NCBI GenBank assembly: GCA_009936995.1
Contig: JAACDH010000514.1
Location: 1-41,732, forward strand
Direction of reading: 5' to 3'
Origin: Rhodobacterales bacterium
GTDB taxonomy: Bacteria > Myxococcota_A > UBA796 > GCA-2862545
DNA: 41,732 bases
In this document: in pieces, positions 850-32,892 of the stretch
How the letters are laid out: each line of letters begins with the position of its first letter
Position numbering within the stretch: the stretch's first letter is position 1
Program-made: the position numbers and the translations under genes
The notes under the pieces: generated by a model
What the model was told of the DNA's origin: nothing
The model's database searches: none
Seen by the model: only the letters and a program-made list of their open reading frames with translations

Positions 850-2427
850 ATGGGGCCGGTTCTGCCTCAAAATGCCAGCGCTTCACAGCGACTTTCTCGT
901 TCTCGCTCGCTGTTTTCTCAGCGTCAGGCGTACGAGTGGGTACACGCACCGGGGCAGCCGCCCTACGTCAAAGACGTGCCTCCCGCCGAGCTCTTCAACA
1001 AGAAGAAGAGCGACCTGTGGAAGCTCGACGTCGAAGAGAGCGTGGCCGACATGGCCCTGGCGGCCGTTCTTCGCCTCCGCGGCCACACCAATACCATCGC
1101 CAGCTTCAATCGCTACTACCCCCTGCGCAAGATACCCAGCACCGCAGAACGCTGGTCGCACGACGCCGAGTTCGCCCGCCAGCGCCTAGACGGTATCAAC
1201 CCCACCATGATCCACCGGATCACCGAGCTGCCCGGTAACTTCCCCCTCACCAACGAGCACCTCGGTAAACTCATAGACGGCCACACCCTCAACGACTTGC
1301 TCGCCGAGGGCCGCCTGTTTGTGTGCGACTACGTCGCCCTCGACGGCATTCCCTTGGTGTACGGCCGCTTCCTCACCGCGCCCATCGCGCTGTTTTGGCT
1401 CGATAACCGGCGTCGACTGATGCCGTTGGCCATTCAACTCGGCCAAGACCCCACCGAAGCCAAGCACATCTTCACGCCTAACGATCCCAAGTGGACCTGG
1501 CTCCTCGCTCGTGCTCATATGCAGGCAGCAGACGCCAGCTATCACGAAACCGTGGCTCACCTTACCCGCACTCACCTGGTCATGGAGACCTTCTGGGTCG
1601 CAGCCTGCCGCAGCCTCCCCGCCGAGCACCCGCTACACGTGCTGCTCCAGCCCCACTTCACCGACACCCTCGAGATCAACCACGAGGCGCGCACGGTGCT
1701 CATTGCGCCCGGGGGACCCATCGACAAGGCCATCGCCGTCGGGTCCAACGGCGGACTCGACTTAGTCGCCAACGAGTACGCCAACTGGTCCTTTGAATAC
1801 TGGGAGTTTGAGGCCGACCTCACCCGCCGCGGCGTCTCCACAAACGACGACATGCCCAACTACCACTACCGCGACGACGCCCGGGCCTATCACCAGGCGA
1901 TCAGCGCCTACGTGAACGACATGCTCCGCGTCTTCTACAAGACCCCCAATGACCTCACCGCCGACACCGAGCTGCAGGCGTGGGTCCAAGAGCTGCTCGG
2001 CACCTCGCTCAAGGGGCTTCCATTTAAGGGCGGTAAGATCACTAGCTTCAAGCAGCTGCATCGGATGATCACCCAGATCATCTTCACCGTCAGCGTCGAA
2101 CACTCTGCCGTAAACAACGGCCAGTACGATGTCTTCGGCTGGATTCCCAACGCGCCAGGTGCGCTCTACCTGCCACCGCCCACCGACAACTCGCCTCGCA
2201 GCGAGGCCAACTTCGTCTACGCACTTCCACCGATTACCGAGGTTGGCCAGCAGCTCACCCTAGTCCACTTGCTCAGCAACCAGACCCAGTTCCCGTTGGG
2301 CACCTACGACGACGACTTCTTCGCCGAATGTCAGCCCGCTCGCGCAGCCGTCGACCGGTTCCGAGCCACGATCGCCAAAGTTGGTAAAGACATTAACGAT
2401 CGAAACAATACATTAGACGTTCCCTAG
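850..2427 (+). CDS. Bacterial lipoxygenase catalytic domain, C-terminus cut by an in-frame TAG
   Basis: Non-haem iron dioxygenase that would add O2 to polyunsaturated fatty acids to give fatty-acid hydroperoxides. The 525 residues form the helical catalytic domain only, with no PLAT domain and no signal peptide. The iron-binding signature HETVAHLTRTHLVME places ligands at H232 and H237 with conserved H242. A second block, EHSAVNNGQYD, gives H418 and N422, followed by the family block WIPNAP. The start ATG has AGAGG 5 nt upstream. The protein stops after TLDVP. Family members normally continue about 15 residues (VPYxYLxPxxIPNSxxI) and end in an Ile whose carboxylate is the fifth iron ligand. 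Here TAG sits exactly where Tyr is expected. The frame continues collinearly (WYLQPKRV...SID) to a TGA at 2479, overlapping the next gene, and the final Ile is not conserved. Activity without the terminal ligand is doubtful. Family assignment is very secure. Confidence 0.93.
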   Translation: MGPVLPQNASASQRLSRSRSLFSQRQAYEWVHAPGQPPYVKDVPPAELFNKKKSDLWKLDVEESVADMALAAVLRLRGHTNTIASFNRYYPLRKIPSTAERWSHDAEFARQRLDGINPTMIHRITELPGNFPLTNEHLGKLIDGHTLNDLLAEGRLFVCDYVALDGIPLVYGRFLTAPIALFWLDNRRRLMPLAIQLGQDPTEAKHIFTPNDPKWTWLLARAHMQAADASYHETVAHLTRTHLVMETFWVAACRSLPAEHPLHVLLQPHFTDTLEINHEARTVLIAPGGPIDKAIAVGSNGGLDLVANEYANWSFEYWEFEADLTRRGVSTNDDMPNYHYRDDARAYHQAISAYVNDMLRVFYKTPNDLTADTELQAWVQELLGTSLKGLPFKGGKITSFKQLHRMITQIIFTVSVEHSAVNNGQYDVFGWIPNAPGALYLPPPTDNSPRSEANFVYALPPITEVGQQLTLVHLLSNQTQFPLGTYDDDFFAECQPARAAVDRFRATIAKVGKDINDRNNTLDVP

Positions 2428-2481
2428 TGGTATTTACAGCCCAAGCGGGTGGGCCGTAGCATTGATATGTGGCGCCAATGA
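2428..2481 (+). pseudogene. Read-through remnant of the lipoxygenase C-terminus
   Basis: In frame after the TAG at 2425-2427 the codons read WYLQPKRVGRSIDMWRQ before a TGA at 2479-2481. Against the family C-terminus VPYxYLxPxxIPNSxxI, the Tyr-Leu, the Pro, a Val for Ile and a Ser are in register without gaps. The Pro-Asn pair is replaced by Gly-Arg, the terminal Ile position is Met, and three extra residues follow. This points to a former coding tail that has begun to drift. It also overlaps the TTG start of the following kinase gene. Confidence 0.6.
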
Positions 2482-5400
2482 AGATCTCGCTCCCGAGCTG
2501 CCTGGCTATACCCTCACTGAACTCATCTATCGCTCACCGCGGAGTCGTGTATGGCGCGGCCTGAACGCCGAAAAGCGTCCGGTGATCGTAAAGTTTTCCG
2601 CCGATGACTACCCGTCCGAACGGCAGCTCGCTGGTATGCAACGGGCGCTCCGCCTCGGTCAGCTTCTTCAGGGCGACTTTGTCGTACCGCACCTCTGTCT
2701 CGAGGTTCATGGGCAACAAATGGCCTTGGTCACCGAAGACTACGGCGCCCAGAGCCTCGATCACCGTCCCAAGCCGTTGGAGTTGGCCTCCTTCCTACAC
2801 ATTAGCGGCCAGATTGCTCTTGCCCTAGCCCATCTTCATAGCCACGAAATCACTCACAAAGACATCAAGCCCGCCAACATCGTCCAAAATCCCCAAAGCG
2901 GTTTGGTCAAGCTCATCGACCTAGAGATCGCCTCCCAGCTCAGCCAAGAGACCGCCACCACGACCGATGTACCCCTCATCGAAGGCACCCTCATCTATAT
3001 TGCGCCCGAGCAGACAGGGCGCATGAACCGCAGCGTCGACCACCGGTCCGACCTGTACGCCATGGGCGCCACTCTGTACGAGCTGCTCACAGGCCGGACG
3101 CCCTTTCCCGAGACCAACCCCCGGGCTCTGCTACATGCACACCTGGCGCGCGACCCGGCCCCTATCCGCCAGATCGTCCCCCAGGTGCCCCAAGTGGTGG
3201 CCGATATTGTTCACCGGCTACTCCGAAAAGAGCCTGCCCAACGCTATCAAACCGCTTTAGGGGTCGCCGACGACCTCGAGCGCTGCCTCGTTGATCTGCA
3301 GGTGGATCAACTGAAGCCGTTTCCGCTGGCCACCCGCGACATTCCCACCCAGTTCCGGCTCCCGGACACTCTTTTCGGACGCAGCCAAGACAAGCAGATC
3401 CTGCTCGACGCTTATCAACGCGTAAAGGTCGGCAACACCGAGTCCCTGTGGATTTCTGGTGCCCCTGGTATTGGGAAGTCGGCGTTAATCCAAGAAGTAC
3501 ATCGACCTATCTCTAAAGACAAAGGCTGGCTTTGCGAGGGCAAGTTCGACCAGTTCCGCCGCGACCTACCCTACCACGCGTGGATCGGCGTCCTCAACGC
3601 CATAGTTCAGCAGCAACTCACCGAGCCAGACGCGGTTTTAGATCCTCTCCGCCGGTCTCTCGCCAACGCTCTGGCCCGAAACGCCGCGCTGCTCACCGAG
3701 GTGGTGCCCGAGCTCATCTTTCTTTTGGGCGAACAAGAGCCCCCGCCACCCGTCAGCCCGTCCGAGGCGAAGCACCGCTTTAACCAATCTTTCCGCACAT
3801 TTCTCCGAGTCATCGCCACCCCCGAACACCCCTTGGTGCTCACCCTCGACGACCTTCAGTGGGCCGACCTCGCCTCGTTACAGCTCCTCGAGTCCCTGCT
3901 CATCGACCGCGAGCTGGCCCACATCCTATTCATCGGCGCCTTCCGCGACGCAGAAGTCGGGCCGGATCACGCTCTTCGCGCTCTGCGGTCTCGCCTCAAA
4001 GACCGCGCCCTCGCAGGCACCACGATTGTGCTCGACCGACTCTCTGAAGGCCACACCGCCGAGCTCATCGCAGCGACAGTGCACCAAGAGGCCGAGGCCG
4101 TGGGCCTCCTCGCCACCACCGTTCACAAACGCACCGATGGCAACCCGTTCTTCGTGCGCCAGTTTCTTGAGACACTGCATCGCAAGTCGCTGCTCTACTT
4201 CGACATCCAGCGGAGATCGTGGACCTGGGAGATCAGCGACATCCAGCAGGAACAGATCACTGACAACGTCGCCACACTGATGAGTAAGCGCGTCCAAGAT
4301 CTCGTCCCGAACACGCGCGACATCCTCGAGCTGGCCAGCTGCATGGGCGCGCAGTTCGACCTCGGAGGACTCGCCGCTATTCGCCGCACCTCGTGGGCCC
4401 AATCCGCCCTCGAACTCAGGCCCGCCCTCGACGATGGGCTAGTCGTTCCCCTGGACCAACACTACAAGTTCATTCTCGATGACGACAGTCGAGAAACGAA
4501 CGTCAGCCGCGTCAATCCTCGCTATCGCTTCCTCCACGACCGGGTCCAGCAGGCCGCCCACGAGGGCCTCTCCAACGAGCGCCGGGCCCAGCTTCACCAC
4601 CAGATTGGCCAGCGGCTGTGGGGCCAAAGGGGCGAAGACGCCATCATCGACATCGCCGACCACTTGGCACACGGCCTCGGCCTTATTGATCCTGCGCAGT
4701 CCGTAGCCGCCGCACAGCTCTTTCTAGACGCTACCCAGCGGGCCAAGCGCTCCATGGCCACCGCTCCAGGACGAAAGTACGCCAGCGCTGGTCTACAGCT
4801 CCTGGGCGAGCAGCCGTGGACCGAACACCGCGAACTGGCCCTCGCCCTACACACCGCAGCCGCCGATCTGGCGTACATCGAGGGCGACTTCGCCGCGGTT
4901 AAGCCGCACAACAAGGCCGTCCTCGACCACGCCATCGACCGATTCGCCAAGGTGCCGATCCACAACATCCGCATCGGCATGGGAGTCGCCAGCGAGGCCT
5001 ACGTCGAAGCCACTCAGTTGGCGGTCGAGGTGCTGGCCCGCGACTTCGACGTCGATCTCCCACGAAATCCCCTGCCTCTACACGTGTTGGCCGGTGTGGT
5101 CCGCATACGATGGACTCTGTACGGCCAAGCAGATGTCGATCTCCTCAACCGCCCCGAGATGACCGACCGTGGCGCATTAGCGTCTATGAACCTGCTGATG
5201 AAGACCAGCACCAACGCCTATTGGGGCATGCCCAACTTGGTCCCGCTCATCGCCTTCGAAATGCTGCACAGCTCGGCCAAGCACGGCAACACCGACCTCA
5301 CCGCCTACGGATACGCCCTGTACGGCATGATCCTGGCCGCGGCATTGGGCGATGTGGACGGTGGATACCGGTATGGCGGCCTAGCCATGCGCCTGCTCGA

Positions 5401-7768
5401 ACAACGCAAGGCGGTGCACCTGCGCGGTAAAACCGGGCTGCTGTGGCACGGCTTTATCCGCCACGCAAAGGACCCGCTCCACGAGTGCGCTACCGCGACG
5501 CTGGCGCACTACCATCCCGCCTTAGACGCCGGTGATGTCGAGAACGCGGTGTACTGCGGAACCGTGGCCTACTCCACCGATCTGATGGCCGGACACAGCC
5601 TGGACTGGGTAGAGAATCGGTACAAGGACTATCTACCGGCGCTCCTCGAGTCGGGCCAAGACCAGACGGTCTACGCCCTCAAGGTTTGGCTACAGGCCAT
5701 CGAGAACCTGCGGAACCCAGGGGACGTCCGAAGTCAATTATCAGGCGAAATTCTAAACTTTCCCGAGCTGCTGCCCCAGCTCGAAGCCGAGTCCAAGCTG
5801 ATGGCCATCGCCAGCGGCGTCTGTGCCGCGGGTTGGTTGGCCTTCCTACTCGAGGACGAAGAGACCGCGGTCACCATGTGGGGTCGACTGTACGAGCTCG
5901 AAGACAAAGCACCCGGCCAAGCCCACCTCAAGCCATGTTTGGCCCTGTACGCCGCGCTGCTAAGTCGAAAGCGCGCCCTGGGAACCCTCGGCGTCAGGGA
6001 GCGCATACGACTCGGCGTACTCCAGATTCGCACCGGCGTCTGGTCTCGTCAAAACGCGCACGATTACCTGCCCTATAAGCACTTCCTCGACGCCGAGTGC
6101 GCCTTGGCTGCCGGCCGTAATGGCCAGGCCCAGGCGGCCTTCCACAATGCCATCAGCACTGCTCGCGCTGCAGGAAATGGCTTCCTCGAAGCCTCCGCCT
6201 GCACTCGAGCCGCGGGCATCCACGGAGACCTCGGTCACCTCGAATTCGCACGTCATCTCACCGTCCGTTCCCAACGACTGTGGCATCGTTATGGCGCGAG
6301 CGCCCGATTCGTCAGCCAGTCGGGTCCCAGCGCCTCTAACGCCAATGGCATCTCGTCGGTCACATACGGAAGCAGCATCTCTACGCAGCAGATAGACCTT
6401 GAACCCATCCTCGAAATAGTCCGGTCGGTGGCCCAAGAGATCAAGATCGACATGCTGGCCACCAAGGTGGCCGAGCTTGCGTTGCTCCATGCCGGGGCCC
6501 GGGTGGGCGTCCTGCTGGTCCGCGAAGGCCGAAACTTTGTACCCCAAGCCCGGGTCGCCATAAACCAGGCCGGCGAAGTGACCGCCACCCACACCGCCGA
6601 CGCCTCCATCCCCACCTCGGTCGTCGACTACGTGTCACGCACCCAACAGCCCCTCATCGTGGACGACGCCAGCAGCCACGCCCTGTTCGCCAAGGACGCC
6701 CATGTGCGAAGCGAAAACAGCCTGTCCATCTTGGTGACGCCGCTCATGCACCACGGCGAGATCGTCGGTCAGGTCGTCCTCGAGAACAACAAAGGACGCG
6801 GCGTATTCACCTCGGTCCACGCACAGATCTTAGAGACCATCGCAGGCCAGGCCGTCGTAAGCCTGATCAACGCCCGTCAGTACGAGGCCCAGCGCCTTCA
6901 AGCCGAGGCCTTTTCGCGCTTCGTCCCGCGTCAATTTCTCGAACATCTGGGGGTGGAGAAGATCGAGGAAGCTCGCCTTGGCCACGGTATCGAGCGCTCG
7001 GTGTCTATCTTGTTCAGCGATCTCCGAGGATTTACAGAGCTCTCGGAGTCCATGAGCCCCGAGGACAACTTCGCCTTCATCAACGGTTACTTGGCACGAA
7101 TGACCTCCGCAATCCAGGTCAACGGCGGCTTCGTCGACGCCTACATAGGCGACGCCATCATGGCCTTATTCGTCGATAACCCCGATGGCGCCGTCCGAGC
7201 CGGAATCGCCATGCAAAAGGCACTCGAAGCGTATAATATCGACCGAGTTAAGGCGGGACGAGCCTCGCTGAACATGGGCATCGGTGTACACACGGGCGAT
7301 GTGCTGCTGGGCATCATTGGCTCCCCCGATCGCATACAGGCCAACGTCACCGGCGACGCCGTGAACGCCGCCTCACGCCTTGAAGGCCTCACCAAACCCT
7401 ACCAAACCCCCTTCCTGATTAGCGAACGCACCCGGTCTGGCCTGGCCGATCCCACCACCTTTCGCATGCGGAGCATAGGAAAAGTAAAGGTAGAAGGTAG
7501 AAAATCCATCATTGAGGTACACGAAATTCTCGACGCTCGCAACGACGCCGACCGAGATGCCCTGCAAACGACCGCCGTTGCTTTCGGGGAGGCCCTAGAG
7601 GCCTTCATGAACCGTGAATTCAAACGGGCCAAGAAGGGCTTTGAACAATGCGCCAAGGTAGCCCAGGCCGACCACTTAGCCACCATCTACGCAGAACGGG
7701 CGACGAGGAACGCGGCCGACGGTGTACCCGAGGACTGGGAGGGCGTGGACGTGCGCACCGGCAAGTAG
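2462..7768 (+). CDS. Multidomain signalling protein: Ser/Thr kinase, AAA/STAND ATPase, helical repeats, GAF, class III nucleotide cyclase
   Basis: A 1768-residue cytoplasmic sensor of the trifunctional kinase/ATPase/cyclase type. The kinase lobe (about 15-275) has K44, HKD at 132-134, APEQ at 181-184 and DLE instead of DFG at 153-155; its glycine loop is degenerate. The ATPase (about 300-700) has an intact Walker A, GAPGIGKS (333-340), and Walker B LDDLQWAD around 462-469. A long helical TPR-like region follows, then a GAF domain (about 1313-1476) and a class III cyclase (about 1512-1680). The cyclase keeps both metal aspartates (D1520, D1564) and the transition-state pair N1635 and R1639. 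The Lys that reads the purine base is Ala1560 and its partner position is Gln1626. The start is a TTG with a weak ribosome binding site, 34 nt after the lipoxygenase TAG, and no ATG is available in frame nearby. The two genes are probably co-transcribed, making this a candidate regulator or partner of the lipoxygenase; that role is inference. Confidence 0.93.
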   Translation: MICGANEDLAPELPGYTLTELIYRSPRSRVWRGLNAEKRPVIVKFSADDYPSERQLAGMQRALRLGQLLQGDFVVPHLCLEVHGQQMALVTEDYGAQSLDHRPKPLELASFLHISGQIALALAHLHSHEITHKDIKPANIVQNPQSGLVKLIDLEIASQLSQETATTTDVPLIEGTLIYIAPEQTGRMNRSVDHRSDLYAMGATLYELLTGRTPFPETNPRALLHAHLARDPAPIRQIVPQVPQVVADIVHRLLRKEPAQRYQTALGVADDLERCLVDLQVDQLKPFPLATRDIPTQFRLPDTLFGRSQDKQILLDAYQRVKVGNTESLWISGAPGIGKSALIQEVHRPISKDKGWLCEGKFDQFRRDLPYHAWIGVLNAIVQQQLTEPDAVLDPLRRSLANALARNAALLTEVVPELIFLLGEQEPPPPVSPSEAKHRFNQSFRTFLRVIATPEHPLVLTLDDLQWADLASLQLLESLLIDRELAHILFIGAFRDAEVGPDHALRALRSRLKDRALAGTTIVLDRLSEGHTAELIAATVHQEAEAVGLLATTVHKRTDGNPFFVRQFLETLHRKSLLYFDIQRRSWTWEISDIQQEQITDNVATLMSKRVQDLVPNTRDILELASCMGAQFDLGGLAAIRRTSWAQSALELRPALDDGLVVPLDQHYKFILDDDSRETNVSRVNPRYRFLHDRVQQAAHEGLSNERRAQLHHQIGQRLWGQRGEDAIIDIADHLAHGLGLIDPAQSVAAAQLFLDATQRAKRSMATAPGRKYASAGLQLLGEQPWTEHRELALALHTAAADLAYIEGDFAAVKPHNKAVLDHAIDRFAKVPIHNIRIGMGVASEAYVEATQLAVEVLARDFDVDLPRNPLPLHVLAGVVRIRWTLYGQADVDLLNRPEMTDRGALASMNLLMKTSTNAYWGMPNLVPLIAFEMLHSSAKHGNTDLTAYGYALYGMILAAALGDVDGGYRYGGLAMRLLEQRKAVHLRGKTGLLWHGFIRHAKDPLHECATATLAHYHPALDAGDVENAVYCGTVAYSTDLMAGHSLDWVENRYKDYLPALLESGQDQTVYALKVWLQAIENLRNPGDVRSQLSGEILNFPELLPQLEAESKLMAIASGVCAAGWLAFLLEDEETAVTMWGRLYELEDKAPGQAHLKPCLALYAALLSRKRALGTLGVRERIRLGVLQIRTGVWSRQNAHDYLPYKHFLDAECALAAGRNGQAQAAFHNAISTARAAGNGFLEASACTRAAGIHGDLGHLEFARHLTVRSQRLWHRYGASARFVSQSGPSASNANGISSVTYGSSISTQQIDLEPILEIVRSVAQEIKIDMLATKVAELALLHAGARVGVLLVREGRNFVPQARVAINQAGEVTATHTADASIPTSVVDYVSRTQQPLIVDDASSHALFAKDAHVRSENSLSILVTPLMHHGEIVGQVVLENNKGRGVFTSVHAQILETIAGQAVVSLINARQYEAQRLQAEAFSRFVPRQFLEHLGVEKIEEARLGHGIERSVSILFSDLRGFTELSESMSPEDNFAFINGYLARMTSAIQVNGGFVDAYIGDAIMALFVDNPDGAVRAGIAMQKALEAYNIDRVKAGRASLNMGIGVHTGDVLLGIIGSPDRIQANVTGDAVNAASRLEGLTKPYQTPFLISERTRSGLADPTTFRMRSIGKVKVEGRKSIIEVHEILDARNDADRDALQTTAVAFGEALEAFMNREFKRAKKGFEQCAKVAQADHLATIYAERATRNAADGVPEDWEGVDVRTGK

Positions 7769-7841
7769 GGCGAATCAAACGACGCACTCGACCCCACCGA
7801 TCCCCGCAAAACGCGGTTGGCTGTGGCTTCAGGAGATGGCC

Positions 7842-8966
7842 CTAAAGCGAATCTCCAGGGGGATCTTTCAGGGGTGGAACCCCTAGCCAGTCGGCGTCTT
7901 TTCGCGAGTCACCAAAGGCCGCCGGTATGCCCCAGATCCGATAGGAAAACAGCCGCGCATGACGCGCCCAGACAGAGGCCAAACGCAGATGGTTTAGCGA
8001 GTGCGGATCGTCGATCGACACCGCCTTGGGAACCGGTAGACTGTCGGGGTGATTACCCATGTCGAACCAGGTCAACATGCTGCGCTCGTAGTTCAGCGCG
8101 CGGACCATTTGGATCTCGGCCACCGAATGCCAAGGCGTCTCGGTCGCGTCCCAGGGCACCGCGCAGGACAGCCACTGAGGCTCGAGCGCTTCGACCGGCT
8201 TCTCGCGCAGCTGCATCATCAGCATGTAATGCAGGGGCTCTTGGTCAAGGTTTAGACGCTGACGAAGCTGCTCTTTCAAGTAGTTCCGGTTTCGTTTTTC
8301 GTTGCGATAGGGGTTCTGCAACCAGGGGTGATTGCGGTCGAAGTCGTCGGGTAGGCCGCCCTCGGGTTGTTCGAAACCCAGGGGTTCAATCTTGTAGCGG
8401 ACATACCGAAACACACCGTCCATCCCCACGAAGCCTAGGGCCGTCTTGGTCTGATAGACCATGTCGCCAAAGCTGTCGGGGTTGCGTCGAACGGCACTGC
8501 CGCCGCCCACTTGGGCCACCGGATACTTCTTGAGGTAGCTGACAAACTGCTTGCCGCGCCCACGGAGAGTGACCCACATGAACTCCACGAAAGTTCGGGC
8601 GTTCCAGAACAATGGCATGTCGCCGCTGTTCATCATCAAGTCAAAGGGCGAGTCAAAGTGGTCGTCTTGGAACTTGAGCGAGGCCGAGCGAACCACCAGC
8701 TTGGCATCGTCTTTGAACGAGGCCGAACCATGGCGCATGCGGCAGCTGAACTCCAGCCCAGGACGAAAGAAGTTGTGCGCAGGAAACGTTGGATTATCGA
8801 CGACTTTCAGCCGCCCCGACAGCGCTATTCCGTTCTCGTGAGACATGCGCTGCTGACCAAAGAAGCTCTGGCCTGTCACCGCAAGGGTCACAAAGAAGGT
8901 GTACACGGCCAGCACCAACCGGTCGTACACGCGCCACATCCAAGTCCACCACGGGTGCCGAATCAT
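7842..8966 (-). CDS. Catalase-related haem protein resembling allene oxide synthase
   Basis: 374 residues with the reduced catalase fold of the coral allene oxide synthase/y4iL-like group, which act on fatty-acid hydroperoxides rather than H2O2. Visible matches to the coral enzyme are a distal R40-M-S-H43 (coral R-A-T-H), VVDNPTFPAHNFF, MNSGDMPLFWN with the distal N113, WDATETPW and SLNHLRLAS. A Thr or Ser before the distal His, in place of the catalase Val, fits a non-catalase role. At the usual proximal position R-x-x-x-Y this protein has R328-L-A-S-V332, so the expected Tyr is absent in an ungapped alignment. Ten residues later R338-L-F-S-Y342 matches the catalase haem-ligand motif. An N-terminal hydrophobic segment (about 17-31) suggests membrane anchoring. 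The ATG has AGGAGG 4 nt upstream. The gene is convergent with the kinase/cyclase and divergent from the SDR. The proximity to a lipoxygenase supports an oxylipin role, which is untested. Confidence 0.85.
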   Translation of the reverse strand: MIRHPWWTWMWRVYDRLVLAVYTFFVTLAVTGQSFFGQQRMSHENGIALSGRLKVVDNPTFPAHNFFRPGLEFSCRMRHGSASFKDDAKLVVRSASLKFQDDHFDSPFDLMMNSGDMPLFWNARTFVEFMWVTLRGRGKQFVSYLKKYPVAQVGGGSAVRRNPDSFGDMVYQTKTALGFVGMDGVFRYVRYKIEPLGFEQPEGGLPDDFDRNHPWLQNPYRNEKRNRNYLKEQLRQRLNLDQEPLHYMLMMQLREKPVEALEPQWLSCAVPWDATETPWHSVAEIQMVRALNYERSMLTWFDMGNHPDSLPVPKAVSIDDPHSLNHLRLASVWARHARLFSYRIWGIPAAFGDSRKDADWLGVPPLKDPPGDSL

Positions 8967-9095
8967 CGGACCTCCTAAGCGGCTACCCTACCCCGAACGG
9001 TCGGTTGGAGCGGCGCCAATCCATCGGAATCCGCGCGTTCGCCTTGCCGAAACACACGCGGTGCCCAATCTAACAGCCAACAACAGGAGCGCGAG

Positions 9096-9938
9096 ATGAG
9101 CTACGACCAGATCGGCATGAAGGGCAAGACGGTGATTGTCACTGGCGCAAACACTGGAATCGGTGAAGTCACCGCCCGTGAGCTCGCCGCCATGGGCGCC
9201 AAGGTGTACCTGGCCTGTCGCAGCAAAGAGAAGGCCGAGCCCGTGGTCGCCGACATCCGCAGCCTCACCGGAAACGCCGAGGTCCACTTCTTGGCGCTCG
9301 ACCTGTCGAGCCTTCACTCGGTTCGCGACGCCGCCAAGACCTTTCTAGCCCTCGACCTCCCCCTAGACCTGCTGGTCAACAACGCCGGACTCGCCGCCGC
9401 GAAGGGCCTCACCGCCGACGGGTTCGAACTCACCTTCGGGGTAAATCACCTGGGTCACTTTCTGTTCACCCAGCTACTGGTCGATCGGGTGGTCGATGGA
9501 GGGCGCATCGTAAACGTAGCCAGCAAGGCCCACTACGAAGCCAAGTCCATCGACTGGGATGCCCAGCGTCAGCCGACCACGGGCCTCACGGGCCTCAAGG
9601 AATACGGCGTGTCTAAGCTGGCCAATGTTCTGTTCACCAAAGAGCTCGCCAAGCGCCTGGCCGACCGCAACATCACGACATACAGCCTTCACCCCGGCGT
9701 GGTCGCATCCGATGTGTGGCGCCAAGTACCCTGGCCGTTCGAGTCGTTGATCAAGCGGTTCATGCTCACTGTAGAAGACGGCGCCCTGACCACGCTGTAC
9801 TGCGCCACCTCGGTCGAAGCCGGCAAAGAGACCGGCCTGTACTATGACGAGAGCAAGGTGAAGAAGCCCAGCCGACTGGCCCGAGACGAAGCGCTAGCGA
9901 CCGAGCTGTGGAAGCGGTCCGAAGCCTGGGTAGCCTAA
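9096..9938 (+). CDS. Short-chain dehydrogenase, retinol-dehydrogenase-like
   Basis: 280-residue NAD(P)-dependent oxidoreductase of the RDH/WWOX-like SDR group. The nucleotide-binding motif is TGANTGIG (16-23) and the structural motif NNAG is at 95-98. N118 lies in FGVNHLGHF, and the catalytic set is S143 in NVASKAH, Y170 and K174 in YGVSK. Arg42 in the loop after beta-2 (ACRSKEKA) is compatible with NADP(H). The ATG has an AGGAG-like site about 7 nt upstream. The gene is divergent from the catalase-related gene, sharing a 129-bp promoter interval. The family commonly acts on hydrophobic alcohols or aldehydes, so reduction or oxidation of a lipoxygenase-derived oxylipin is a reasonable guess, but the substrate is unknown. 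Confidence 0.9.
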   Translation: MSYDQIGMKGKTVIVTGANTGIGEVTARELAAMGAKVYLACRSKEKAEPVVADIRSLTGNAEVHFLALDLSSLHSVRDAAKTFLALDLPLDLLVNNAGLAAAKGLTADGFELTFGVNHLGHFLFTQLLVDRVVDGGRIVNVASKAHYEAKSIDWDAQRQPTTGLTGLKEYGVSKLANVLFTKELAKRLADRNITTYSLHPGVVASDVWRQVPWPFESLIKRFMLTVEDGALTTLYCATSVEAGKETGLYYDESKVKKPSRLARDEALATELWKRSEAWVA

Positions 9939-12981: not shown

Positions 12982-14175
12982 CTAACGCTTTTTGCCACCA
13001 CGTCCACGCTTGCTGCGCGACTTTTGACCGCCTTGGGCCTCGGAAGCGGGTTTGGAGTTGGACTGGCCAGGGCTTCCAGGGGGGTACAGCTCGTGCACTT
13101 CGCGGCGAAAGGCCTCGAATCGCTTCTCGAGAATGGATTGCCGCATCCGAGCCATGAACTGATGGAACCACGCGATATTGTGGATGGAGCACAGGGTTGC
13201 CGACAGCACCTCGCCCACGCGCAGCAGGTGATTCAAGTACGCCCGGCTGTAGTTCTGACAGGTGTAGCAAGTACACTCGGTATCCACCGGATAAAAGTCG
13301 TTTCGGAAGCGACGATCGGACATCCGCAGGCGACCGCGACCGGTGTACACCACGCCACTGCGCGCGTGACGGGTCTGTAGGACGCAGTCGAACATGTCGA
13401 CACCTCGAGCCACCGCTTCGACCAGGTCGAGAGGACGGCCGACGCCCATCAGGTAGCGGGGCGCGTTGACCGGCATATGCGGCGTGGTCCACTCGAGGAC
13501 CTCGCACATCACCTCATAGCCCTCGCCCACCGACAGGCCGCCGATGGCGTAACCGTCGAAGCCGATGTCGCAAATCTCTTGGGCGGAACGTTTACGTAAG
13601 TCGGGCCAAAAGCCACCTTGAACAATGCCAAATAGCGATTGGTCGGGCCGCTTGTGCACGTCTTTACAGCGTTGCTCCCAGCGGGTGGTGCGAGCGACAG
13701 ACTGTTCGGCGTAGGACTTCTCGGTTCCAAAGGCCAGGCACTCATCGAAGACCATGGCGATGTCGGCGCCGAGCTTCTCTTGAATCTCCATCGAACGCTC
13801 GGGGGACAAGAACGTGCGCTTGCCATCCACCTCGTACTGGAAGGTGACCCCCTTCTCGTCGACCTCCTTGTCCAGCGAGAACACCTGGAAGCCACCGGAG
13901 TCGGTGAGCATCGGCAACTCGCTGCCCATAAATTTATGCAGACCCCCCGCCTTGGCGATCAGATCTTCGCCCGGTCGCTGGGACAGGTGGTACGTATTCG
14001 CCAGCAAGATCTGCGTTCCTGTATCGGCCATATGCAGAGAACTCACCGAGCGAACCGCCCCCTGAGTGCCCACAGGCATATACAGAGGCGTTTGCACTTC
14101 GCCGCGAGGAAGCTGGAAAGTTGTGGCCCGGGCGCCGCCGTCGGTCCCGTTTAGCCTAAAGTTCACCGAGTTCAT
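12982..14175 (-). CDS. tgt: Queuine tRNA-guanine transglycosylase (bacterial Tgt)
   Basis: 397 residues. It exchanges guanine-34 for preQ1 in tRNAs with GUN anticodons. TDSGGFQ holds the general base D92. RGVDMFDCV holds the nucleophile D260, and GGLSVGEG matches the substrate-binding loop. The zinc site is C301, C303, C306 and H332 (CTCYTCQN...IHN). The usual PTRNARNG segment is QTRHARSG (267-274), a variant that keeps the TR-x-(A/G)-R-x-G frame. A basic, glycine-rich tail (KSRSKRGRGGKKR) extends past the catalytic domain and is likely RNA-binding. The start ATG overlaps the stop of the upstream gene as ATGA, giving translational coupling, and infA follows 15 nt downstream. Confidence 0.96.
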   Translation of the reverse strand: MNSVNFRLNGTDGGARATTFQLPRGEVQTPLYMPVGTQGAVRSVSSLHMADTGTQILLANTYHLSQRPGEDLIAKAGGLHKFMGSELPMLTDSGGFQVFSLDKEVDEKGVTFQYEVDGKRTFLSPERSMEIQEKLGADIAMVFDECLAFGTEKSYAEQSVARTTRWEQRCKDVHKRPDQSLFGIVQGGFWPDLRKRSAQEICDIGFDGYAIGGLSVGEGYEVMCEVLEWTTPHMPVNAPRYLMGVGRPLDLVEAVARGVDMFDCVLQTRHARSGVVYTGRGRLRMSDRRFRNDFYPVDTECTCYTCQNYSRAYLNHLLRVGEVLSATLCSIHNIAWFHQFMARMRQSILEKRFEAFRREVHELYPPGSPGQSNSKPASEAQGGQKSRSKRGRGGKKR

Positions 14176-15641
14176 GTGCTCGTCCGTCGAACCGACCGAA
14201 GATCTTCATCGGCGCGGGTGACCAGTCCGGTCAGGCCCACCTCGGTATCCGCTAGACCGAAGAGACACAACACCTCTCGTAAACGATGGTCGCCGTGAAG
14301 GCGCAACTGGATGCCTCGGGAGACGTTGACCATGCGGCTCCGAGCCACCCGTTCTGAACAGCCCTGAAAGCCGATCAAGAAGGTGTCTCCGTCCACCTGT
14401 CCCACCAAGTCTTTTAGGCGAAGACCGGCGTTTAGGCCATCGGCCACCATACGCAGAGCCATGTTGCTTGCCGCCTTACCCCAACGAGCGCGGGCCACTT
14501 GGGTGCCTTCGATCAAGAAGATGCACACGCTCATGGGCTCTCCGCTGCGCTGGGTGTTGCCCAACATTCGATCGAGGGCGCGGAGGGTGGCCGTGCGATC
14601 AAGCAGGTTGCTCACCGGATGGCAACCCTGCCGGATGGCGAGGATGCGCTGGTAGCGAAGTCGAACGCGCTCACAGAGCTTCGCCGGACTGATTGTCTCG
14701 CCAAAAACATCGTCGGCACCCGCTTCGCGGAGGGCAGCTTCGTTGTCTTTGGCGCCGAGAATGAGCACCGGTACGTGATTCCGACGGGCGTGTGTTCGCA
14801 CGGCGCGCAGCAGAATCTCGGCGGACACGCCGCCGACCTCGGCACCGAGGAGCAGCACATCGGGGCAAACCAAATCGAGGGCGGGCGCGATCTCGGCGGG
14901 GGCCCCGCTGACCACCACTACAAACCCCGCCCCTTCGAGGAAGGTGACTTGGGCGTCGCGTTCGGGGGTCTCGGCCGCCAGAAAGAAAACCTCCGCCGGC
15001 CCGACCCGGCCGCGGACGTGGGCCCGGACGCGATCGAGAAGGTCGGGAACAGCCACCGGGTGGGGCACGAACCCGTCGGCGCCGGCCTTGACCACCGCGA
15101 GACGGGTGTCCCAGTCGCGCCCCTCTCCCCAAACCAACACGGGCGCGTTGTGTTCTGCGGCGATTTCACGGGCGGTCTCAACCTGATCCATAGGCACCAA
15201 CAGCGCCGCCCAAGGCACCACCGATAAGGGGTCTTCGAGCTCGTCGAGGGTCTCGGCAACCACGATCGGCTCCGATGTGACGGGGGCCGCCTTGCGGAGC
15301 CGTTGCGCCAACACCGCATCTCCGACGACTCCGATGGGGCCAAAAAGCGTGTGCGAACCCGATCGGATGGCGCGCGCGATAGCTACCAAGCCCACCGCTC
15401 CCTGTCCCTTCGAGACCGCCACAGAGGCCTCTTCGCTGGCCGCGCAGAGCACTTCGAGGCCCAAAGCACTAGACGTTCGGGCGATACGATTCAGCTCTGC
15501 AACGACAGATTCTGATGCCTCATCGCCATCTTCTGACAGAAGAACCGCGTACTCCTGCAGCTGCGGCCCCACTTGACAGAGGAAGCTACCTCGAAGCCGT
15601 TCTTGCGCAGCGCTGCGTTTTGACTGTCGGTCCACCGACAC
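14172..15641 (-). CDS. Degenerate Hpt / double receiver / GGDEF-like protein
   Basis: 489 residues starting at a GTG with GGGAG 5 nt upstream. Order: an Hpt-like helical domain (about 12-105) with Asn51 where the phospho-accepting His belongs (ELNRIARTSSALGL). A receiver-like domain (about 125-210) follows, ending VKAGADGFVPHPV, with no acceptor Asp. A second receiver (about 216-333) has PDVLLLGAEVGG with Gly266 at the Asp position. Last is a GGDEF-family domain (about 345-487) whose signature is DGDTF (417-421). The architecture is that of a phosphorelay diguanylate cyclase, but every catalytic or phosphorylated position visible is lost, so it is more likely a scaffold or ligand sensor. It is first in an apparent operon with tgt and infA (ATGA overlap). 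Confidence 0.8.
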   Translation of the reverse strand: MSVDRQSKRSAAQERLRGSFLCQVGPQLQEYAVLLSEDGDEASESVVAELNRIARTSSALGLEVLCAASEEASVAVSKGQGAVGLVAIARAIRSGSHTLFGPIGVVGDAVLAQRLRKAAPVTSEPIVVAETLDELEDPLSVVPWAALLVPMDQVETAREIAAEHNAPVLVWGEGRDWDTRLAVVKAGADGFVPHPVAVPDLLDRVRAHVRGRVGPAEVFFLAAETPERDAQVTFLEGAGFVVVVSGAPAEIAPALDLVCPDVLLLGAEVGGVSAEILLRAVRTHARRNHVPVLILGAKDNEAALREAGADDVFGETISPAKLCERVRLRYQRILAIRQGCHPVSNLLDRTATLRALDRMLGNTQRSGEPMSVCIFLIEGTQVARARWGKAASNMALRMVADGLNAGLRLKDLVGQVDGDTFLIGFQGCSERVARSRMVNVSRGIQLRLHGDHRLREVLCLFGLADTEVGLTGLVTRADEDLRSVRRTST

Positions 15642-25868: not shown

Positions 25869-28800
25869 CTACGTTGTCCGGCGCATTTCGCGAGACCAGG
25901 GATGCAGCCGGAGCGCAGCGCGGTCAGTGTCGTTGAGGCCTTTCGAGATTTGGGTCAGCAATCGGACAGTCTCCAGGGTGTATTCACTCTTATCACAGCC
26001 ATTTGCGTCGGCATATCGGGCCTGAGCGAGCGCGCGTTCGACGTGCACAACCACACAGGGTTGGTGTTCCATATAGTCGCTTACAGGCGAGAATATGGAC
26101 ACGGGGTCGACGGCATGACCCATGGCGCGGGCCTGTGCCATGCAGGCCATGGCGGTGGCTGGCACATGACCCGAGCGCTTGAGGCCAGCGACGGCATGGA
26201 GACAGGCGGCGAGCGCACCGTCATGGTCGCCCAGACCCCACAGCGTTTCGCCGAGGAGCGCATGGCTCAGATAGGCGATGATTCCCAAGCCAGCACTCTG
26301 GGCCCGGTCACGGACGAACTGGAGCCGGCGTTGGGCATCTGAGAACTGCCCCGAGGCGAGTAAAATACGACCCCACACCAGGTCGGACTCGAGGCGGAGA
26401 TCGAGGTGCTCGCCCTTGCGTAGGGTAGCCGCAAGCTCGTCGACGCACTCTTGGGCACGCCCCAAGCGACAGACGTCGACCTCGGCCCAAGCGGTAGAGA
26501 GCAACATGCGGACATACAAGGACGGCGACTCGCTCTGACGCATGTTGGGTGTTTGTCGGTACAGGACTTCTAGCACTTCGCTAAATCGCCCCTGCTCGCG
26601 GAGGGCGCTGGCCCAAACGGGAACGACCATTGACAGCCCGCGCATGTCGCCCACTTGGTCGAACACGCCGATGGCGGCCACCGAGATGCCCTCGGACTCG
26701 ACCAACTTCCCCCGGGCGAACTGCCAGCCGGAAACACCCACATCTGCGTGGGCCCGAACCACCTCAACGCCCACTGTTACGGCGATACGCCGAGCCCGAC
26801 CATGCCACGTGGCGGCGGCGGCGATATGACCGGCGGCGCGATTAGACCACCCAAGCAGGCCGGCCACATTGGCCCCAAGGGCGCTCGGCTGACCGTGCTC
26901 GATGAGGTACCAAGCCTTCATCAGGTGATCACGAAAGTTGGGATAGTGCCCAATGACCCGCTGAATACGCGCCCGCAGCAGATGAATCTCGGCTCGGAAG
27001 TGGTCGGGCTCGTCATGCCCCAATTGGGTGGCATTAGCGAGGGACTTGCTGGTGTTAGGGTCGGTGGGCCGCGCCATCAACAAGGCAGCCACATGCAGCA
27101 GGAACAACCTGGATTTATCGCCTTTGCTAATGGGCGCTTGCAGAACGTGCGGCATGACCTCATCAAGCACCTGAAGCGCTGATTCCGGGGCGTTCTTAGA
27201 CAAGTGGTGCAGGCCCCAATCGGCGGCACCGTGCATGGCCTCTTCGTACCAACCCACCTGCATAAGCAGCCGAATTTGTGCAGCAAACGCCGGTTCTTCG
27301 GCTACCTGCTCGATCAGTCGACGCTCGAGTACCCGGCGGCGGCAGAGGTGCATCTGGTCTTTGACCACTTTTTCGGCGATGACATGACGCCACCGGGCGT
27401 GGACCGCGCCTTCGTCGTGATAGACCGCGATCCAACCTTCGCGCTGGAGATCGTCGAGGGCGGGCGTGAGCTCGATCACACGGCACTGGAGCGCGCCAGC
27501 AAGCACCTGCGCCGAGGACTGCCCATCGAGCAGTGATAGCGCTTCGAGCACCCGGCGACGATCGGCAGGCAAGCTGGCCAAGGAGTCCTTCACTCGCTGG
27601 CGGGCCCGCTTTGGAATCGGAATATCGAGGTCTTGGCGGGCCCATTCCAAACGGTTGGCGTCGCGGCCCTGCACCCGAAGAATGCCCTGGTCCACCATGC
27701 CGCGGACCACGGCTTCGACGTACTCGGGGAGGCCGCCGGACGCTTCGTAGATACGACGAGCAACCACACCTGGGGGCGGACGTCGGTTGAGCAGAGAGCC
27801 CACCAATAGCGCAACGTGCCGTGGACTCAAGGGCGGCAGGTGAACCCGCAGCGCGTCGCCCATCCGTCTGCGAGCGGGGGAATCCGGGTCGTCGGCGCGC
27901 TCGACACAATCGGCGGCAATAACCACCCGGGTTTCGCGCGATCGAATGTGCTTGCGGAGCCGAATCAGCGCCTCCATGCCCAAGGGGCCGGCGTGATGCA
28001 GCCCGCGAACAACCAGCAAGATGGGTTCGCCGTCGGCGGCGGCTCTCTGAGCAAACAAGACATCGGCGGCGCGAACCAGGGCCGAGATGCGGTCGGAGGC
28101 GGACTGCGCCGTGACCCGACTCACTTGGGCCAACGCAGTTTTTGCCGCGCGAACTTCGATAGAACCGCTCCCCTCGAAGGACCGCGAGAGCTCGCCCAGC
28201 AACCCCGCTAGACCATCGAGGGGATCGCCATCACGGTGAAAGAACCAACTGAAGACCCGCCAATTGCGCTTGCGTACGTCGGTTTCAACCGCGTTGATCA
28301 CCTTCTGTCGACCACTGCCCTGAAGCCCGACAATGAACACACTGGCACCGGGCTCGGGGCCGGTCGAGGTGGGACCGTCGAGGAAGCGCCACAGTTGAGC
28401 GATCTGCTCTTCACGACCCACCAATGAACCCTTGGACAAGTTGACGTCGAGGGTTCCGGGCAGCACCAGGGGATGGCCGGCCACGGCTTCGAGGGCTTTT
28501 GCAACATCGGCACCACTTTGGGGGCGGTTCTCGGGCTTTTTCTCGAGTAACGCAAGGATGATGTCTTCCAGACCCAGGGGCAGCGATTTTGTCAATTCGC
28601 GGGGTGGACGGGGAATCTCTTTGACATGCTGTCGCGCCAGGGCATGTAGCTCTTTCGCGTTAAACGGGCGCTTTCCCGTCGCCATGCGGTACAGAAGCAC
28701 CCCTAGGCTGTACAGGTCGGACCGACTATCGGCCGGCTTCTGGGTGAGCTGCTCGGGCGATGCATACGCAAACGTGCCGATGAACTCGCCTTCTCGGGTG

Positions 28801-29300
28801 ATATCTTCGACGGCATCGGACACGCGAGCGGTACCAAAGTCGATGAGCTTGACCCGGCCATCGGGCAAAACGAGTACGTTGGCCGACTTGAGATCGCGAT
28901 GCACCAAGCCGCGGCGATGAATGTGGTCGATGGCCAACGCTAAGTCGTGCGCCGTGCGGATCACCTCGGCAGTTCGACGCGCCGTGCCCGCCGTGCCGCA
29001 GCGCTTGGCGTACGCTTGGATGGGCGTACCGTCGACCAATTCCATGGTCAACCACGGCAATTTCCCGAACATACCGTAGTGAAATACCCGGACAATATTG
29101 GGGTGATTCAGGCGAATCATCGCCTCGTATTCACGATTAAAGCGGGGAAGAGCACCGCCAGTCTCGAGCAGGAACTTGAGCGCTAGATGCTCGCCACTCG
29201 CCAGGTCCTCGACCTCATACACCTCGGCCATGCCGCCCCGCGCAATGGGTCGGAGCAGCCCGTAGGGCCCGATTTGTTCTGGCAGCGCAGCGTTCGTCAT
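25869..29300 (-). CDS. Kinase A: Ser/Thr kinase with degenerate STAND ATPase and TPR-like C-terminus
   Basis: 1143 residues. The kinase domain (about 11-275) is complete and should be active: ARGGMAEVY loop, K42, HRDLKSAN at 134-141, DFG at 154-156 and SPEQ at 181-184. A STAND/AAA-like region follows (about 290-700). Its P-loop is GLQGSGRQ (325-332), lacking the Lys and the Ser/Thr, and its Walker B is LLVVRGLHHAG with Arg-Gly for the acidic pair, so ATP hydrolysis is unlikely. The last 440 residues are TPR-like helical repeats and end with LNDTDRAALRLHPWSR, a block shared with kinase B. It is a soluble signalling protein, positioned 25 nt after kinase B and 2 nt before ydbS. Confidence 0.92.
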   Translation of the reverse strand: MTNAALPEQIGPYGLLRPIARGGMAEVYEVEDLASGEHLALKFLLETGGALPRFNREYEAMIRLNHPNIVRVFHYGMFGKLPWLTMELVDGTPIQAYAKRCGTAGTARRTAEVIRTAHDLALAIDHIHRRGLVHRDLKSANVLVLPDGRVKLIDFGTARVSDAVEDITREGEFIGTFAYASPEQLTQKPADSRSDLYSLGVLLYRMATGKRPFNAKELHALARQHVKEIPRPPRELTKSLPLGLEDIILALLEKKPENRPQSGADVAKALEAVAGHPLVLPGTLDVNLSKGSLVGREEQIAQLWRFLDGPTSTGPEPGASVFIVGLQGSGRQKVINAVETDVRKRNWRVFSWFFHRDGDPLDGLAGLLGELSRSFEGSGSIEVRAAKTALAQVSRVTAQSASDRISALVRAADVLFAQRAAADGEPILLVVRGLHHAGPLGMEALIRLRKHIRSRETRVVIAADCVERADDPDSPARRRMGDALRVHLPPLSPRHVALLVGSLLNRRPPPGVVARRIYEASGGLPEYVEAVVRGMVDQGILRVQGRDANRLEWARQDLDIPIPKRARQRVKDSLASLPADRRRVLEALSLLDGQSSAQVLAGALQCRVIELTPALDDLQREGWIAVYHDEGAVHARWRHVIAEKVVKDQMHLCRRRVLERRLIEQVAEEPAFAAQIRLLMQVGWYEEAMHGAADWGLHHLSKNAPESALQVLDEVMPHVLQAPISKGDKSRLFLLHVAALLMARPTDPNTSKSLANATQLGHDEPDHFRAEIHLLRARIQRVIGHYPNFRDHLMKAWYLIEHGQPSALGANVAGLLGWSNRAAGHIAAAATWHGRARRIAVTVGVEVVRAHADVGVSGWQFARGKLVESEGISVAAIGVFDQVGDMRGLSMVVPVWASALREQGRFSEVLEVLYRQTPNMRQSESPSLYVRMLLSTAWAEVDVCRLGRAQECVDELAATLRKGEHLDLRLESDLVWGRILLASGQFSDAQRRLQFVRDRAQSAGLGIIAYLSHALLGETLWGLGDHDGALAACLHAVAGLKRSGHVPATAMACMAQARAMGHAVDPVSIFSPVSDYMEHQPCVVVHVERALAQARYADANGCDKSEYTLETVRLLTQISKGLNDTDRAALRLHPWSREMRRTT

Positions 29301-29325: not shown

Positions 29326-29667
29326 TCATCGGAGTCCCCTGCGAATTCGTCGCGACCAACTGTGTACACGCAAAGCTGCCCGGTCGGTGTCGTTCAATCC
29401 GGTGGCCAACCGATTCATCACCATCGCCGCTTCTCGGTAGGCCTGCTTGCTGCCTTGTCGGTCGCCGCGACGGCGCGCGCGGACGCCAATGGTCAGCAAT
29501 CGCTCGAGGGCCAAGGCCGGTGGAGGACCGTCGTCGAGCCAGCGTCGAACCGGCCGAAACAGCAGATCAACGCCGTAGTCGCGCGACAGGGCTCGCGCCC
29601 GAGAGATGCAGGCATCGGCCAACGCCGTTTGGACCCCAAGACCCATCAACCCCAGCACCGCCGACTA
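29326..29667 (-). pseudogene. Kinase B C-terminal segment beyond an in-frame TAG
   Basis: Directly in frame with kinase B, starting at its TAG (29667-29665), the reading frame continues about 113 codons to a TGA. It aligns with the end of kinase A without a gap around the stop (GDHDGALAACLHAV in A; GDRVGAADLY, stop, SAV in B). It ends with LNDTDRAALRVHSWSR, nearly identical to the kinase A terminus. The stop corresponds to a Leu in kinase A. This is the natural C-terminus of kinase B, separated by one nonsense codon. Independent translation from a GTG at 29658 is possible but has no clear ribosome binding site. Confidence 0.75.
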
Positions 29668-32715: not shown

Positions 32716-32892
32716 CGGGACAGGGTACCTCAGACCAACACCGCACCGCACTGCACTGCCCTCCTGCCTTGATTCAAGTTCGATTCCCCGGGCAAGACAC
32801 AATCCGAACCTCCGGATCGTCCTGGCGCATTCTGGGGTAGTCTTTGGTCGCGGTCCCTCCGCCAGCCCCTTCTCCTACCCGCTTGGTCCCCC

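Follow-up and report, generated by a model that had tools for sequence, protein, structure and literature searches.

Among the closest described systems are the AOS-LOX and HPL-LOX fusion proteins of corals, known from Plexaura homomalla and Capnella imbricata, in which a haem domain of the coral allene oxide synthase (cAOS) type lies N-terminal to a lipoxygenase (LOX). There is no settled view of what bacterial lipoxygenases do for the cell, and we know of no bacterial receptor for their products. Catalase-LOX fusions, in which a bacterial catalase-related haem domain is likewise joined to a LOX, are described from the cyanobacteria Anabaena and Acaryochloris marina; the Anabaena protein turns 9R-HpODE into an allylic epoxide, and the sections of that source drawn on here, by whose description alone these fusions are compared with our proteins, describe no cyclase receptor alongside (PMC11719350). 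The 12S-LOX of Myxococcus fulvus, a bacterial arachidonate LOX of S specificity, was characterised alone, the title and abstract of that report naming no catalase-related or cyclase partner (PMC6612559). In the open-access literature, we found no earlier description of a module uniting a LOX, a cAOS-like haem protein and a cyclase receptor.

We analysed a single window, the whole stretch of 41,732 nucleotides, in which open reading frames and domain matches agree with a preliminary description that had placed there genes for a LOX, a kinase/cyclase protein (KIN), a cAOS-type haem protein (CAT) and an SDR (an adh_short profile match). KIN has a TTG start codon and begins 34 nt past the LOX stop on the same strand (Table 1); a promoter and terminator scan returned no more sites than shuffled sequences did. 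With the coral fusions, this locus shares the fold and distal haem residues of the haem protein, its LOX and CAT genes being separate but adjacent, and four related loci (L039–L042) share the order of a cAOS-type domain N-terminal to LOX in one chain. Unlike in the coral proteins, LOX has no PLAT domain, CAT has Ser for Thr66 and no Tyr at position 353, and a cyclase receptor gene lies alongside. The Coffa position is Ala (S-type) in every bacterial member compared, Ala280 in the window, whereas the coral LOX gives 8R products.

Table 1. Positions of the LOX, KIN and CAT genes and their internal features within the window.
Feature	Position	Strand	Remarks
LOX, lipoxygenase	850..2427	+	525 aa; consists of the catalytic domain, without PLAT
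In-frame TAG of LOX	2425..2427	+	replaces Tyr codon of ..LDVP-Y-xYLxP..GRSxxI
LOX C-terminus remnant past stop (WYLQPKRVGRSIDMWRQ*)	2428..2481	+	overlaps KIN start
KIN, 1768 aa: Pkinase - AAA_16/STAND - TPR-like superhelix - GAF - class III nucleotide cyclase	2462..7768	+	
Ser/Thr kinase-like domain of KIN	2546..3250	+	Lys44, HKDIKPAN intact; DLE instead of DFG
AAA_16 NTPase of KIN	3371..3934	+	Walker A GAPGIGKS, Walker B LTLDD
TPR-like superhelix of KIN, predicted sensor, helical throughout	4538..6319	+	residues about 693-1286; AlphaFold2 model
GAF domain of KIN	6455..6862	+	profile match
Class III nucleotide cyclase of KIN	6998..7513	+	two metal Asp + Asn/Arg present; substrate Lys -> Ala
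CAT, cAOS-type haem protein	7842..8966	-	374 aa; hydrophobic helix at N-terminus

LOX matches PF00305 (E 2e-72; 245 bits against a cut-off of 23.6), and its best solved relatives are human ALOX15B and the coral LOX. The preliminary description had credited it with its iron ligands, and this holds for His232, His237, His418 and Asn422, which are common to all relatives compared, but not for the C-terminal carboxylate ligand, which is missing because the TAG removes the last 15 residues of the C-terminus found in all relatives. The terminal ligand position is Ile in most relatives and Ala/Thr in L041/L042; past the TAG, a Met stands at this position and the frame continues three codons further. 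TAG also ends 11 of 18 other window genes checked, and stop-codon reassignment at this site was rejected, TAG being an ordinary stop here. Past the stop, the original codons can still be made out, so the loss would be either a recent event or an artefact of assembly, the MAG being fragmented. With its C-terminal iron ligand lacking, this copy may have been disabled not long ago, be supplied with hydroperoxides from another source, or contain a sequencing error. For this copy only, and compatibly with the main reading given below, we put the chances about even that LOX is a decaying gene and that the locus has no hydroperoxide source of its own. Two lesions, a stop (TAG) where a Tyr codon is conserved and the loss of the terminal Ile position, argue for decay, as does the complete C-terminus in 28/28 other LOX proteins compared; against it stand the recognisable codons past the stop and the remainder of LOX, which, along with KIN and CAT, is open with catalytic motifs kept.

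The likeness of CAT to cAOS over its length, claimed earlier, stands in both sequence and fold: residues 25–340 align with coral cAOS (1u5u) at E 3.4e-47 in phmmer, no other solved protein being matched by sequence at E<=10, and the predicted fold is nearest 1u5u in Foldseek (TM 0.81, rmsd 2.1 A), by a wide margin over catalases. The cAOS distal His67 and Asn137 and haem Arg64 and Arg102 have conserved counterparts in CAT, whose distal Ser42-His43, Arg40, Arg78 and Asn113 include four invariant residues (H43, N113, R40 and R78); Ser replaces cAOS Thr66, beside the distal His, throughout the CAT clade, a conservative change. Where the likeness fails is the axial ligand: with the register set by CAT R328-L329-A330 = cAOS R349-V350-A351, no Tyr was found at the Tyr353 position of the cyclase-linked CATs, which have V, I, S or other residues there. 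Ten residues past this register lies an invariant Arg338-x3-Tyr342 (Tyr342 codon 7943-7941), whose Tyr might serve as substitute axial ligand; in the haem-free AF2 model a single continuous helix (323–345) bears both R328 and Y342. From the cAOS fold, the distal His/Asn and the fusion of CAT to LOX, we infer a hydroperoxide-converting activity.

KIN gives profile matches to Pkinase, AAA_16, GAF and Guanylate_cyc. Residues 300–1320 were modelled with AlphaFold2 (pLDDT 85.8), and the nearest solved folds are the STAND-TPR protein 6mfv (best PDB match, E 1.9e-8) and MalT, in a loose global superposition (TMt 0.44); on this model, the core resembles a STAND NTPase with a winged helix and a helical-repeat (TPR) sensor. 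The cyclase matches PF00211 (65.8 bits against a cut-off of 21.9) with motifs FSD, IGD and VNAASR, and its substrate-specifying residues, expected to be Lys and Asp/Thr, are Ala and Asn. Across loci these positions hold Ala, Glu, Lys, Ser or Asn, with the substrate Lys kept only in L035 and L037; given this variation, the product may be cAMP or cGMP, and some copies may be inactive. Walker A and B were found in all loci compared. In four loci the kinase motifs have degenerated, and in four the cyclase-bearing neighbour has no kinase domain, so the cyclase and STAND parts emerge as the shared element of the module; the kinase as key output is not supported. KIN shares with the TOMM kinase/cyclase (TIGR03903) a kinase, AAA/STAND, helical repeats and a cyclase in one chain. 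This match is partial, scoring 122 bits where the cut-off is 705.75, and membership was rejected; KIN differs in having a GAF domain and in being linked to oxylipin enzymes rather than a TOMM peptide cluster. A subfamily exclusive to LOX neighbourhoods was likewise rejected: linked KINs do not form one clade in a tree from which the positions of L082/L083 were disregarded as wrong-frame sequences, and since some genomes have paralogues without LOX or CAT (L079 and L081), the receptor family also occurs outside the module.

LOX, KIN and CAT are a conserved unit. In G015/G003, of the same family, the trio has identical order and strands with different flanks (identity to the window: CAT 50%, KIN 45%, LOX 52%). 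These belong to 13 named loci which, with the window, make up the 14 loci of the CAT clade. This clade spans several phyla, the named loci being drawn from records, mostly MAGs, of Gamma-, Beta- and Alphaproteobacteria and of Acidimicrobiia. LOX adjoins CAT in 13/14 (the exception, L033, has a contig that ends within KIN), and a protein with a class III cyclase and AAA_16 (STAND) is adjacent in all 14. Ten of these neighbours have the Pkinase-AAA_16-GAF-cyclase architecture of KIN (architecture A), loci that share descent and are not independent draws; four (L030, L039, L040 and, without a SAM hit, L036) have a SAM-cyclase-AAA_16-TPR type (architecture B) which shares the class III cyclase, STAND ATPase and TPR with KIN and adjoins CAT-LOX, but has reversed domain order, no kinase, no GAF and local identity of only 23-29%. 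CAT-LOX fusions of 907-967 aa occur in L039-L042, among them those of Thiocapsa marina and Thiohalocapsa halophila, both of them isolates; in Thiocapsa marina and its relatives, KIN and the fusion gene overlap by 4 bases. Cyclases are rare: all but one of the genomes encode 1-9, and in a Thiohalocapsa MAG the sole cyclase is the linked one. Distances among CAT, LOX and KIN correlate (r 0.82-0.89; 0/5000 permutations). Further assemblies involve other LOX or CAT lineages (L058/L059, L064/L066), and L074 has LOX-KIN without CAT. In L058 a kinase gene with a cNMP-binding domain comes next, in keeping with cyclic-nucleotide signalling.

The linkage is thus kept far beyond the taxonomic order, in proteobacteria and Acidimicrobiia and with CAT-LOX fusions beside the same receptor; the refuting case named in the preliminary description, linkage not conserved among relatives, is not borne out, and the linkage supports the preliminary description's pairing of hydroperoxide-processing enzymes with a signalling protein. 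The SDR, which that description had counted in the pathway, is no member: no related locus has a homologue at >60 bits. The cassette is patchy in distribution and clearly horizontally spread; plasmid carriage was rejected, 72,556 plasmid records yielding no CAT match.

With moderate confidence, we read the locus as a copy of a bacterial module that has spread horizontally and couples oxylipin chemistry to cyclic-nucleotide signalling. At the level of genome organisation, the predicted coupling of the oxylipin pair to a STAND/cyclase receptor is strongly supported, whereas the signalling direction, the lipid and the nucleotide are what we infer. In intact copies, LOX would, judging by its family and iron ligands, oxygenate a polyunsaturated fatty acid to a hydroperoxide, which CAT, separate or LOX-fused, would turn on its haem into a reactive product, for example an allene oxide, epoxide or aldehyde. 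The STAND-type receptor next door would bind the signal through its TPR-like and/or GAF part, the oxylipin or a precursor of it being the simplest candidate, and would control the class III cyclase, and hence a cyclic nucleotide, by its ATPase switch. The window copy retains receptor and CAT intact beside a LOX without its C-terminal iron ligand. A more specific version, to which we give somewhat less than even weight, is a mobile cassette that makes its own oxylipin and reads it by a cyclic-nucleotide-producing STAND receptor, the CAT haem being held by a relocated axial Tyr or by none.

The same neighbourhoods also fit the opposite direction, in which the STAND/cyclase protein senses another cue (nutrient, redox state or cell contact) and its cNMP or kinase turns the oxylipin enzymes on, the lipid being the output. 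The cNMP-binding kinase of the L058 operon would suit this too, as would the further Ser/Thr kinases that LOX adjoins at L068 and L073; but no finding singles it out, LOX and CAT have no known phosphorylation or cNMP-binding site, and we consider it unlikely. The catalase fold and conserved distal His/Asn of CAT would also accommodate damage control, with CAT clearing lipid hydroperoxides in a catalase- or peroxidase-like manner, the receptor acting as a lipid-peroxide stress sensor, and no deliberate signal lipid. Across nearly all of the clade, CAT has a hydroperoxide-making LOX as linked gene or fusion partner, which makes this improbable, and cAOS itself is no H2O2 scavenger (PMC5617202).

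NTP-dependent conflict systems are known from multicellular bacteria (PMC7159879), and a patchy, horizontally spread module with a STAND switch could be another, its effector being lipid peroxidation by LOX that harms infected cells or competitors at their membrane. We regard this as very improbable: lipoxygenase is not mentioned in that paper, and PADLOC matched generic kinase and cyclase domains only, with none for LOX or CAT. Horizontal spread would equally suit unrelated genes co-kept by shared transfer and without functional coupling, but this we find scarcely credible given the CAT-LOX fusion, the retention of content while gene order and strand change, the replacement of the receptor in place by a non-orthologous cyclase/AAA_16 protein, and a chance expectation of ~10^-5.8 for three non-orthologous placements.

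That a LOX, a coral-type haem enzyme and a cyclase receptor move together between unrelated bacteria suggests an undescribed bacterial lipid-signal system. An axial Tyr missing from its cAOS position in the cyclase-linked CATs would also bring something new to the haem chemistry of the catalase fold. The module's presence in the cultured Thiocapsa marina 5811 and Thiohalocapsa halophila DSM 6210 makes bacterial oxylipin signalling directly testable; if the proposed reading is true, it would be a bacterial counterpart of lipid-mediator signalling.

An ORF check recovered all four reading frames proposed in the preliminary description, encoding a lipoxygenase (LOX), a kinase/cyclase protein (KIN), a haem protein (CAT) and an SDR, at the positions originally assigned to them. 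LOX and KIN lie on one strand with a spacing of 34 nt, and KIN and CAT are convergent, 73 nt apart. The window is one contig of 41,732 bases among the 724 that make up its source genome, a MAG of 5.6 Mb that is 78% complete. Elsewhere in the window, two large Ser/Thr kinase proteins are encoded in tandem (25869-29300 and 29665-32802, both on the minus strand), the former also carrying AAA_16 in a KIN-like layout without the cyclase, and a 495-aa protein (36395-37882, minus strand), whose N-terminal part (ACRGMGTDEALVFSTL) resembles an annexin repeat, had neither a Pfam match nor a relative among solved structures.

Genes around the lipoxygenase in the window
Gene	Position	Strand	Match
LOX	850-2427	+	Pfam Lipoxygenase, 2e-72
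KIN (1768 residues)	2462-7768	+	Pfam Pkinase, AAA_16, GAF, Guanylate_cyc
CAT (haem protein)	7842-8966	-	phmmer match to coral allene oxide synthase (cAOS)
SDR	9096-9938	+	

Two further genomes from this family (G015 and G003) have CAT, KIN and LOX in the order and strands seen in the window, with different flanking genes and identities to the window proteins of 50%, 45% and 52%, respectively. A CAT profile scan of GTDB-representative genomes recovered 13 loci, including these two again; the others were labelled Xanthomonadales, Granulosicoccaceae, Lamprocystis, Competibacteraceae, Acidimicrobiaceae/Acidimicrobiales, a beta-proteobacterium, Thiohalocapsa (two), Rhodobacteraceae and Thiocapsa marina 5811. 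LOX adjoins CAT or lies one gene off in every scan locus except L033, whose contig stops within KIN. In L039–L042, LOX and CAT form a single protein of 907–967 aa; in Thiocapsa marina the fusion gene and KIN overlap by 4 bases, an arrangement that recurs in four related genomes (L101–L104). The proposed linkage is thus conserved for the trio; the SDR, put forward as a pathway partner, has no homologue above 60 bits in any related locus and falls away. Distances computed pairwise for CAT, LOX and KIN are correlated with one another (r 0.82–0.89). In the order that includes Thiocapsa marina, 8 of 210 genomes gave a high-scoring match; the class to which the Acidimicrobiales MAG belongs had 1 positive genome of 198, and the order of the Rhodobacteraceae one 1 of 246. 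This patchy distribution indicates that the module spread horizontally. The loci come mostly from MAGs, the strongest cases being isolates; for L034, the taxon in the record name and the isolate name disagree, and its KIN is frameshifted. L030 (6805-7260) and L031 (3938-4378) encode related small hydrophobic proteins of ~150 aa, without a Pfam match, in the interval separating LOX from the gene for the cyclase protein.

KIN is absent from four loci (L030, L036, L039 and L040), where the neighbor is a protein of 1103–1162 aa combining a class III cyclase with AAA_16, with SAM in three of the four and TPR-type matches in L030, L039 and L040; local identity to KIN is just 23–29%. A cyclase/AAA_16 protein accordingly stands beside CAT-LOX in all 14 loci of the clade (the window and the 13 scan loci), in two architectures and with changed orientation, and the common element is a cyclase with a STAND ATPase. 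In the CAT tree, L030 and L036 group with L031, and L039 and L040 with L041 and L042; the KIN-less loci thus occupy two places, and receptor type must have switched at least twice. Cyclases are few in the genomes that hold these loci, with one in the Thiohalocapsa MAG, two in T. marina, 2–9 in most and 33 in a single case. The chance of three non-orthologous cyclases each being placed within ~20 kb is about 10^-5.8 if other forms of clustering are ignored. Walker motifs are kept, as are the cyclase metal-binding Asp residues wherever the region is present; four loci (L032, L034, L035 and L041) have degenerate kinase motifs, and KIN paralogues without LOX exist. The KIN core is predicted to be STAND-like, with helical repeats forming a long sensor (pLDDT 85.8 for the model), its nearest solved folds being the STAND-TPR structure 6mfv and MalT. 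The substrate-choosing residues of the cyclase vary among loci, so its product may be either cAMP or cGMP.

CAT has no Pfam match, and a phmmer search of all solved structures returned only cAOS (1u5u and 3dy5; E 3.4e-47, residues 25–340); its predicted fold is closest to 1u5u (TM 0.81, rmsd 2.1 Å). It keeps equivalents of cAOS Arg64, His67, Arg102 and Asn137, the residues listed in PMC5617202, with Ser at the Thr66 position. The full-length resemblance to cAOS initially claimed holds for match, fold and distal residues, but not for the axial Tyr. Profile-profile alignment equates R328-L329-A330 with cAOS R349-V350-A351, so the counterpart of axial Tyr353 should be position 332; all cyclase-linked CATs compared (window, L030–L042, L058, L059, L064 and L066) have Val, Ile, Ser or another residue there. 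R-x3-Y is retained in CATs without a cyclase neighbor (L028, L029, L060–L063, L065 and L067). Common descent may explain why the loss of Tyr goes with linkage to a cyclase. Arg338-x3-Tyr342, recalling the RLFSY signature of catalases, is invariant in all 14 clade CATs; Tyr342 lies 10 residues beyond the cAOS axial-Tyr position, within one helix (323–345) predicted by AlphaFold2. CAT likely binds haem, and Tyr342 might serve as its axial ligand. In L029 (1-3084, minus strand) and L067 (1944-7394, plus strand), a CAT-type domain is fused behind an acyl-AMP ligase, followed in the 1816-aa L067 protein by amine oxidase, carrier and acyltransferase domains; such fusions suggest haem chemistry on activated fatty acids.

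Related LOX chains terminate in P-Y-x-[YF]-L-x-P-x-x-[IV]-x-x-S-x-x-I or something very similar. TAG (2425-2427) replaces the Tyr codon of this tail in the window LOX, and the tail persists downstream in frame as WYLQPKRVGRSIDMWRQ-stop, with Met where the chain would terminate and three codons added. Of the iron ligands first ascribed to it, His232, His237, His418 and Asn422 are all kept, but the fifth, the C-terminal carboxylate, is lost through the TAG. The passage of PMC10653942 citing murine 12-lipoxygenase mutagenesis treats the terminal Ile/Val as a defining LOX trait whose deletion threatens activity. All 28 other LOX proteins compared have a complete C-terminus; the last residue is Ala or Thr rather than Ile/Val in L041, L042, L060 and L070, the first two being LOX parts of CAT-LOX fusions. 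TAG serves as an ordinary stop codon in this genome. The stop may be a MAG error; the presence of two separate lesions speaks for genuine decay.

In the wider phylum, CAT, LOX and KIN also co-occur in L058 and L059 with a LOX of different lineage, and in L064 and L066 with both CAT and LOX of different lineages, while L074 lacks CAT but combines KIN with two LOX genes. Next after LOX-CAT-KIN in the L058 operon comes a gene (13588-15141; G076:C140) for a Ser/Thr kinase that also carries a cyclic-nucleotide-binding domain (PF00027, 6.8e-14); this kinase is a candidate effector of the cyclase. LOX-kinase linkage may extend beyond this module, since CAT-less LOX genes adjoin other large Ser/Thr kinases, namely a kinase-WD40 protein in L068 (11466-14657) and a double kinase-AAA_16 protein in L073 (9392-13810). 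In L077 (4043-6589), LOX is fused to C2 and a polyketide-cyclase/lipid-transport domain in place of PLAT.

Because LOX carries Ala at the Coffa position, which we take to mark S-type enzymes, it would form an S-type fatty-acid hydroperoxide; CAT would rearrange this product on its haem, and the STAND receptor would sense the lipid or its precursor and then set the cyclase. Signaling may run in reverse, with the receptor controlling the oxylipin enzymes, and this is the foremost rival. As a circumstantial observation, the expression of a myxobacterial gene annotated as a TOMM kinase/cyclase is altered under methyl jasmonate (PMC6997564). Catalase-LOX fusions are already known from corals and cyanobacteria (PMC5617202, PMC11719350); our search, largely confined to the open-access literature, turned up no account of their linkage to a cyclase.
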